Source: Fibrobacterota bacterium
Lineage (GTDB): Bacteria; Fibrobacterota; Fibrobacteria; UBA11236
Assembly (NCBI GenBank): GCA_947466585.1
Contig: CANIEU010000001.1
Location: 236,414-300,413, forward strand
Reading direction: 5' to 3'
DNA: 64,000 nt
Below are positions 9,159 to 22,084 of this stretch, piece by piece. Made by a program: the position numbers and the translations under genes. Position 1 is the first letter of the stretch. Each line of letters opens with the position of its first letter. A model generated the notes under the pieces. That model saw only the letters and a program-made list of their open reading frames with translations. It made no database searches and was not told the DNA's origin.

Positions 9159-9238
9159 TTCGTACTCCTACGCGTACTTCGTACTCGGCGTTTTTCGAAT
9201 AATTTCGAGTACGTGTAGGAGTACGAGGCACGAGTACG
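9159..9238. repeat. Intergenic inverted repeat with CGTACTC-type repeats in both arms (element E)
   Basis: TCGTACTCCTACGCGTAC (9160-9177) pairs with GTACGTGTAGGAGTACGA (9208-9225), 17/18 plus a GU. Confidence 0.8.
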
Positions 9239-9374
9239 ATGGGGATTCCTGACCGGACAGGGAACAGTCCCCAGAGACCTCGCCCCTATTTCCTCACTCC
9301 ATTGCCCGAAACGCGGTGAGATACTAAGTTTGTGACCCTCATTGAGTTAGACAAAAAACCGACGGAAAAGACCT

Positions 9375-20682: not shown

Positions 20683-21981
20683 TTACTCGAGTACTTTCGA
20701 AATAATTCGGCCAACGATATCATTGTGAGCAGGCGAAAATCTGAATCCGACTTCAGTTTCTGCCGGTACTGTGTGCGACTTTAACCCTGGAATGGATTCG
20801 ACCCATTCAACATCAAAAACGGTTGTTCTGATATAGGATCGCAAATGCGATGCCTTAGCAAGTTTCCCGTTTCGCCTCGCCAAAAACACATAGAACCAGG
20901 CTTTCGCGAGCGCTTTCAAAACGGGTACTTCACGGATCAATGAGCCAGTTCGTTTCCACTCTGCACTACTTAGAATTGTGGTCCAAAATTCTTTTGCGAC
21001 CGTAATTGAATCTGCAACATTGTATGGCGCAGTTTTAATGCTGGTTTTTCCAAGGAAAAGAAACCCATGAATACTCGCCAATTGACGAAGATCCAATACG
21101 GGTGTGCCTCCACTGTGAGTGGCGATTTCCGTTTGCACCCATTCTTTGGCAAAGCGATTTAAGGGATTGCTTTGATCGAAGACCAAGTTGAGATCAAGTC
21201 GGACAGGCTTAACGTTACAGTTATAATTTGTAAACATCTGTCTCGCTTGATCAACACTTAGGCCGACATGGGCCTCAAATGAGATCATTGTCCATGATCG
21301 AAACGTATCCTGGATTGCGATCCATGCATCGAGCTCAATTGCACTCATCGGCTCACCAGGCGCGGAAAAGATTTTGGAGTTTTTCGGAATTCTACGATCA
21401 GTTACAATACGACTCAACAATTCTCTCACCCGTCTTGCCGCCTCCCTTCGATGCTGTCCATCGGCCACAACAAATAGAGTACCTGCAGGAAGAAAAAGCT
21501 TTACTGCAGTCGACGCAGGAACACTTGAAATTTCTGCAAAGTCCGGTGCGGTGGTAAGCACAAGGGTCACCTGTGGCAATCCGTAATGCGAACTGCGGCC
21601 AATTTTGTCTTGGATCTGGTCTAATTCATGAACGACCTCGTCTCCAAAATCAGACCCTTCTTTGCGCAAAAGTGTTGCAGCCACTAATCCTTGAAGCATA
21701 AAGATTGCCAATCCATTTGCATGCGCATCAATAATTTCACGCTGGGTAACTGAGTCAAATGTTTCCCCTGCAGCTTCGGCCCACCGGCGGTTATGCACCA
21801 CAGTCAAGTCCGCAAATTGCTCGAGAGTCAATCTCCCCGTGAAGGTCGGTAGGCCTTGGTTACGGCCCACCTGTCCTACCAATTCAATTTGCCTATGACG
21901 GGTAGCTTTGAGAACCGAATCGAGATCAAGCGATTTCAGGTTTTCGGATTTATTTAATTCATTATTCATTAGTATCTCCAT
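20683..21981 (-). CDS. DndB/DGQHR-domain protein (orphan)
   Basis: 432 aa; VVADGQHRREAARRV motif; NYNCNVKPVRLDLNL resembles the NxxxK region of DGQHR/DndB proteins. AT-richer than flanks; no dnd neighbours. Confidence 0.75.
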   Translation of the reverse strand: MEILMNNELNKSENLKSLDLDSVLKATRHRQIELVGQVGRNQGLPTFTGRLTLEQFADLTVVHNRRWAEAAGETFDSVTQREIIDAHANGLAIFMLQGLVAATLLRKEGSDFGDEVVHELDQIQDKIGRSSHYGLPQVTLVLTTAPDFAEISSVPASTAVKLFLPAGTLFVVADGQHRREAARRVRELLSRIVTDRRIPKNSKIFSAPGEPMSAIELDAWIAIQDTFRSWTMISFEAHVGLSVDQARQMFTNYNCNVKPVRLDLNLVFDQSNPLNRFAKEWVQTEIATHSGGTPVLDLRQLASIHGFLFLGKTSIKTAPYNVADSITVAKEFWTTILSSAEWKRTGSLIREVPVLKALAKAWFYVFLARRNGKLAKASHLRSYIRTTVFDVEWVESIPGLKSHTVPAETEVGFRFSPAHNDIVGRIISKVLE

Positions 21982-22000
21982 CTATTTACCAGTACGAACA

Positions 22001-22084
22001 CCGTCCTGGAGGCTTTTTATTCTTGCCTGGATGTAATATAAGCATTCCTGGATTATAAATCAAGCGTCCAGGACGGTTTTTATT
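22001..22084. repeat. Four tandem 21-bp repeats centred on CCWGG
   Basis: ccgtcctggaggctttttatt / cttgcctggatgtaatataag / cattcctggattataaatcaa / gcgtccaggacggtttttatt. Confidence 0.85.

Follow-up and report, generated by a model that had tools for sequence, protein, structure and literature searches.

A phased CCWGG array in the promoter of a solo DndB-family gene as a probable autoregulatory operator

Introduction

What reads four evenly spaced copies of the pentamer CCWGG in front of a gene for a DndB-like protein? This question is raised by a 64,000-nucleotide stretch of DNA from a Fibrobacterota bacterium (hereafter, the window), in which such an array stands immediately upstream of a gene of this kind. 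Stand-alone members of the family are usually annotated just as 'DNA sulfur modification protein DndB', and DndB-like (DGQHR) proteins are considered ParB-like in the family literature. In Salmonella, DndB represses its own promoter via two repeated TACG-N10-CGTA palindromes (He et al. 2015, PMC4507180). Additionally, a bacterial DndB-like protein has been found to bind ATP and GTP, and DndB has been described as a ParB-like, nucleotide-binding DNA regulator of the ParB-CTPase fold family (PMC12704722).

Architecture of the array and the predicted promoter

The array spans positions 22000–22077, is assigned to neither strand, and consists of four CCWGG palindromes: TCCTGGA at 22004–22010 (core 22005–22009, centre 22007), CCTGG at 22026–22030 (centre 22028), TCCTGGA at 22046–22052 (core 22047–22051, centre 22049), and TCCAGGA at 22067–22073 (core CCAGG at 22068–22072, centre 22070). 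Since CCWGG is a palindrome, the register was taken at the centre base, and direct reading of the sequence gave a centre-to-centre spacing of exactly 21/21/21 bp. An earlier reading of this DNA, made from the letters alone (the sequence-only reading), had located all four cores correctly and had counted 17 of 21 matching positions between the first and fourth units, a count that we also obtained. Its spacing of 21/21/20 is corrected here, the '20' having arisen because CCTGGA and TCCAGG were mixed as anchors. The outer pair, which it had described as an exact 10-bp inverted repeat, is indeed exact and is one base longer, with 11-bp arms at the two ends of the array (ACCGTCCTGGA at 22000–22010 and TCCAGGACGGT at 22067–22077).

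A sigma-70-like promoter was predicted inside the array on the minus strand, with a −35 hexamer TTGATT (22058–22063) and a −10 hexamer TATATT (22035–22040) separated by a 17-bp spacer; the prediction is based on the consensus match together with promoter comparison across loci, such a match alone being at about chance level in the shuffled region. Relative to the predicted +1, the sites are centred at approximately −42 (just upstream of the −35 hexamer), −21 (within the −35/−10 spacer), 0 (at the predicted transcription start), and +21 (in the untranslated leader).

Four CCWGG sites were counted in the 180 bp upstream of the gene against 0.18 expected, a number matched by none of 2000 dinucleotide shuffles, and the three CCWGG-N16-CCWGG pairs in the window (0.32 expected; three never reached in 100 shuffles) all come from the array. 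In the whole 2.24-Mb genome, the three-site CCWGG pattern occurred once, at the array, also when the gaps were varied by some bases. A genome-wide regulon was rejected on account of this confinement of the three-site pattern to the DndB-like gene. Phased CCWGG triplets (consecutive sites with gaps near two, three, or four helical turns) numbered 15 in 483 kb from the loci compared here and related records, and every one lay in the promoter of a DndB-like gene; these loci share descent, so that the trials are not fully independent, although the sequence separating the sites is for the most part not conserved. Fifteen other NNWNN palindromic pentamers, used as controls in the same 483 kb, gave zero to four phased triplets each, though most of them are commoner than CCWGG. 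The four-site 21-bp pattern was also tried as a diagnostic in IMG/VR, where at least 120 stretches carried it and an HMM search found a DndB relative in none of those examined; therefore, the pattern alone is not diagnostic in a collection of that size. An iteron, centromere, or recombination site was rejected, as the array adjoins no replication, partition, or recombinase gene, just a promoter.

The DndB-like gene and its genomic context

The gene downstream of the array lies on the minus strand at 20683–21981 and encodes 432 amino acids from the ATG at 21981, or 428 from the ATG at 21969. The latter is the likelier start because a likely ribosome-binding site, GGAG (21976–21979, minus strand), lies 6 nt before it and because it agrees with the start of a 65% identical relative, in which the GGAGA-ACTA block aligns too. 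The 19 nt that the sequence-only reading gave between the array and the ATG apply to the first in-frame ATG (21981) and become about 31 nt for the likelier one.

The encoded protein is a member of the DndB family, based on a match to PF14072 (E = 3.2e-10; 40 bits, above the cut-off of 29.1) and on the DGQHR motif at residues 174–178. It scored 12.7 bits against the cut-off of 328 for TIGR03233, the equivalog of DNA-sulfur-modification DndB, and fell under the cut-off for TIGR03187. No match to TIGR03183 at E ≤ 0.01 was obtained in the genome for DndC, by which a Dnd phosphorothioation system would be recognized. A separate DNA-binding domain was not recognized by the Pfam search, and the structure models (pLDDT 63 and 71) were too weak to add anything, with best PDB matches that were not significant (SspE, E = 0.11; ParB-N and PadC, E > 2).

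The neighbours of the gene are an HD-domain gene and mutS, the latter named from its sequence, and no defence gene follows it in the window. Forty relatives yielded no comparable full-length gene, and searches of 169 genomes of its phylum, 396 of the phylum of locus L004 (an Acidobacteria MAG), and 399 of that of locus L005 gave no orthologues beyond those already known. These results show that the gene is rare and patchy, and its absence from the 40 relatives and the 169 genomes indicates that it was probably acquired horizontally.

Conservation of the array among relatives

The single close relative in the genome collection is the 65% identical protein of L004. Upstream of its gene, CCTGG recurs at 21/21 bp, with sites at −42, −21, and 0 relative to the best promoter prediction, and CCTGGACGCTTGA (gene strand, −42 site) is identical in the window and L004. 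Divergence between the two loci is greater in the intervening sequence than in the sites themselves.

More distant plasmid and viral homologues (25–29% protein identity) were identified through protein similarity, without use of the motif, and their upstream regions were then examined. CCWGG recurred with gaps of 32/43 bp on a Paracoccus plasmid, 23/31/22 on a Peribacillus plasmid, 22/22 on a Polymorphobacter plasmid, 31/22/22 on a Clostridium plasmid, and 31 on a Paenibacillus plasmid, as well as 22/22/32, 23/22/22/22, and 22/43 on the IMG/VR contigs L017, L019, and L161, respectively. In these eight loci, the gaps are close to whole helical turns (two to four). The alignment of orthologue upstream regions that the sequence-only reading had proposed as a check thus came out in its favour, the phased array recurring in L004 and the eight loci. 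The cores prefer a T before and an A after them (TCCWGGA), and no in-phase CCSGG was seen among the homologue promoters. Array-bearing loci have no neighbouring gene in common, so the constant partner of the array is the gene itself. On the Paenibacillus crassostreae plasmid pPC02 (L028), we observed a broken second dndB-like copy in several frames, still preceded by the upstream region that stands before the intact copy on pPC01.

The position of the sites relative to the predicted promoters was also compared. CCWGG lies inside the 17-bp −35/−10 spacer in the window, L004, L010, L017, L019, and L161, which is a typical repressor position. The site at 0 is kept in L004 and lies near +3 in L019; an equivalent of the +21 site is absent from L004 and lies near +22/+23 in L010 and L161. 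On the Bacillota plasmids, the nearest CCWGG lies between −40 and −42, with the remainder farther upstream (about −42/−64/−95/−118 and −40/−62/−84/−115 on the Peribacillus and Clostridium plasmids, respectively), an arrangement that may serve activation as well as repression. In the predicted promoters of the phage loci L009, L015, L020, L023, and L024, CTAGG occupies the −35/−10 spacer, where other family members have CCWGG.

Homologues without the array

Homologues lacking the array, which the sequence-only reading had named as counter-evidence, did not turn up in L004 or the eight loci, and they did turn up in two groups. The array is absent upstream of the genes of L162 and L163 (about 23% identical), and there is no CCWGG upstream of the dndB-like gene in the Pseudomonas phage homologues, which are approximately 50% identical to the Peribacillus protein and form one clade in the tree.

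The five gene-carrying Pseudomonas phages contain no CCWGG in 25–50 kb (in phage REC1, zero in 50 kb, where about 90 would be expected). CCWGG is likewise wholly absent from phiPsa374 and JG004, in neither of which the gene was found, and two further relatives without the gene are strongly depleted. Self-avoidance of CCWGG due to the phages' own DndB was rejected, as the two gene-less phages are equally at zero, pointing to a lineage trait. The absence of the array in the phages is therefore confounded, because the lineage has purged CCWGG with or without the gene and its promoters cannot keep an array. The absence of CCWGG from these phages probably reflects restriction avoidance, independent of the dndB-like gene.

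More broadly, Otagovirus/Pakpunavirus-like Pseudomonas phages (L171, comprising REC1 1–50000, and L172–L179) had no CCWGG in 25–50 kb (approximately 23–90 expected) and normal CCSGG. GGWCC was also nearly absent from REC1, VCM, UAVern, and phiPsa374.

An autoregulatory operator and its alternatives

The sequence-only reading had proposed an operator array for the DndB-like protein, and comparative genomics strongly supports this proposal, because the array tracks the gene family alone in Acidobacteriota, Bacillota, Alphaproteobacteria, and the phylum of the window as well as in viral contigs, and because it overlaps the predicted promoter at fixed positions. From these patterns, the encoded protein very probably binds the array, which is quite probably a cooperative autoregulatory operator of a solo DndB-like protein, likely a repressor, outside any Dnd operon. 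A symmetric protein unit would sit on each CCWGG palindrome, and the two-turn spacing would place the units on the same face of the DNA, where neighbours could touch; we infer cooperativity among the sites. An array occupied at −42, −21, 0, and +21 would cover the −35 hexamer, the spacer, the −10 hexamer, and the start, which would block RNA polymerase and result in negative autoregulation of the DndB-like gene.

The effect of binding would probably be repression rather than activation, which is favoured by the placement of sites within the spacer and at the predicted start and by analogy with Salmonella DndB. An operator that activates, or that activates when sparsely occupied and represses when more fully occupied, is unlikely: the site at −42 and those farther upstream could recruit RNA polymerase, and the spacing in Peribacillus and Clostridium resembles class I/II activator sites, but the spacer site in the window and five other loci, with those at 0 and +21 in the window, suits occlusion, and the well-studied relative, Salmonella DndB, is a repressor (PMC4507180). 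That some other host regulator, unrelated to the encoded protein, occupies the array and controls DndB-like genes by coincidence is very unlikely. The hosts belong to several phyla and include viral contigs, to all of which one regulator would hardly be common, and no phased array was found at any other gene in the 483 kb, nor the three-site pattern elsewhere in the genome of the window.

The sequence-only reading had further suggested that occupancy might sense modification at CCWGG, whether by Dcm-type methylation or otherwise, so that the operator would report the modification state of DNA. Every core of the array is a CCWGG site, the same pentamer as Dcm/EcoRII sites, DndB relatives belong to DNA-modification systems, and, on the Polymorphobacter plasmid, genes for Vsr and a C5 methylase lie no more than about 5 kb from dndB. 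However, neither PF00145 nor PF01555 (C5 and N6/N4-type methylases) was detected in the genome (98.4% complete, positive controls included), nor was DndC; unlike scattered Dcm/EcoRII sites, the array is phased in a promoter, and its host has no detectable C5-cytosine methylase. The chromosomal array is therefore probably unmethylated at CCWGG. The Polymorphobacter methylase is Dcm-like in its catalytic part alone (27% identity to E. coli Dcm over 213 aa), and array-bearing plasmids neither avoid nor enrich CCWGG elsewhere. This part of the sequence-only reading is not supported, and a modification-sensing operator is very unlikely, being conceivable solely for incoming DNA.

The preferred autoregulatory operator resembles that of Salmonella enterica DndB (PMC4507180) in that a DndB-family gene carries repeated palindromes in its own promoter, with negative autoregulation shown there and predicted here. 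The Salmonella operator comprises two TACG-N10-CGTA palindromes, whereas two to five CCWGG sites at 21–23, 31–32, or 43 bp are present here, and dndB heads a dndBCDE operon there, whereas the gene in the window is solo, in a genome in which no DndC was found. No exact TACG-N10-CGTA was among the window matches listed, and the promoter has a chance-level one with two mismatches (21993–22010). The same search also revealed, as a cluster of matches, a TAC/CGTA-rich run of short repeats at 9159–9252 (TACGCGTACTTCGTACTCGG...). Repeated palindromic DNA sites are also shared with the ParB-CTPase fold family, in which DndB was described as ParB-like (PMC12704722); unlike ParB-CTPase systems, the window locus has no ParA partner or centromere context, and a ParB-like fold of the protein is presumed here from the family literature.

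Defence context and implications for the family

Some homologues lie beside defence genes. On the Polymorphobacter plasmid p29334-4 (L155, 10748–13975), Cap15 and an oligonucleotide cyclase gene, both CBASS-type, come directly after the DndB-like gene, with Vsr and the C5 methylase nearby, and downstream of the L004 gene lie DUF4917 (PADLOC candidate PDC-S21) and a weak match to AbiGi. JSS1_004 was discarded as a DndB relative, since its paper describes a kinase/shutoff protein instead. A role of DndB-like proteins in the control of defence is a lead only. A wider role is conceivable but decidedly unlikely: solo members of the DndB-like family, whether on plasmids, in phages, or at defence loci, would be regulators that read CCWGG under the control of a nucleotide switch and leave the array in response to incoming DNA, through its copy number, CCWGG content, or modification, thereby activating their own genes and, where present, linked defence genes, Cap15/CD-NTase on the Polymorphobacter plasmid being an example.

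In the open-licence literature searched, no DndB relative was described as having a CCWGG operator. DndB-type autoregulation is known, and we regard the predicted CCWGG operator in the solo subfamily as new. With a short palindrome and its spacing named as the predicted target, the stand-alone DndB-like family would gain a concrete and testable function, namely sequence-specific regulation at a target that is recognizable from genome sequence. These results suggest that stand-alone DndB-like proteins serve in regulation on mobile or defence DNA and not as components of sulfur modification.
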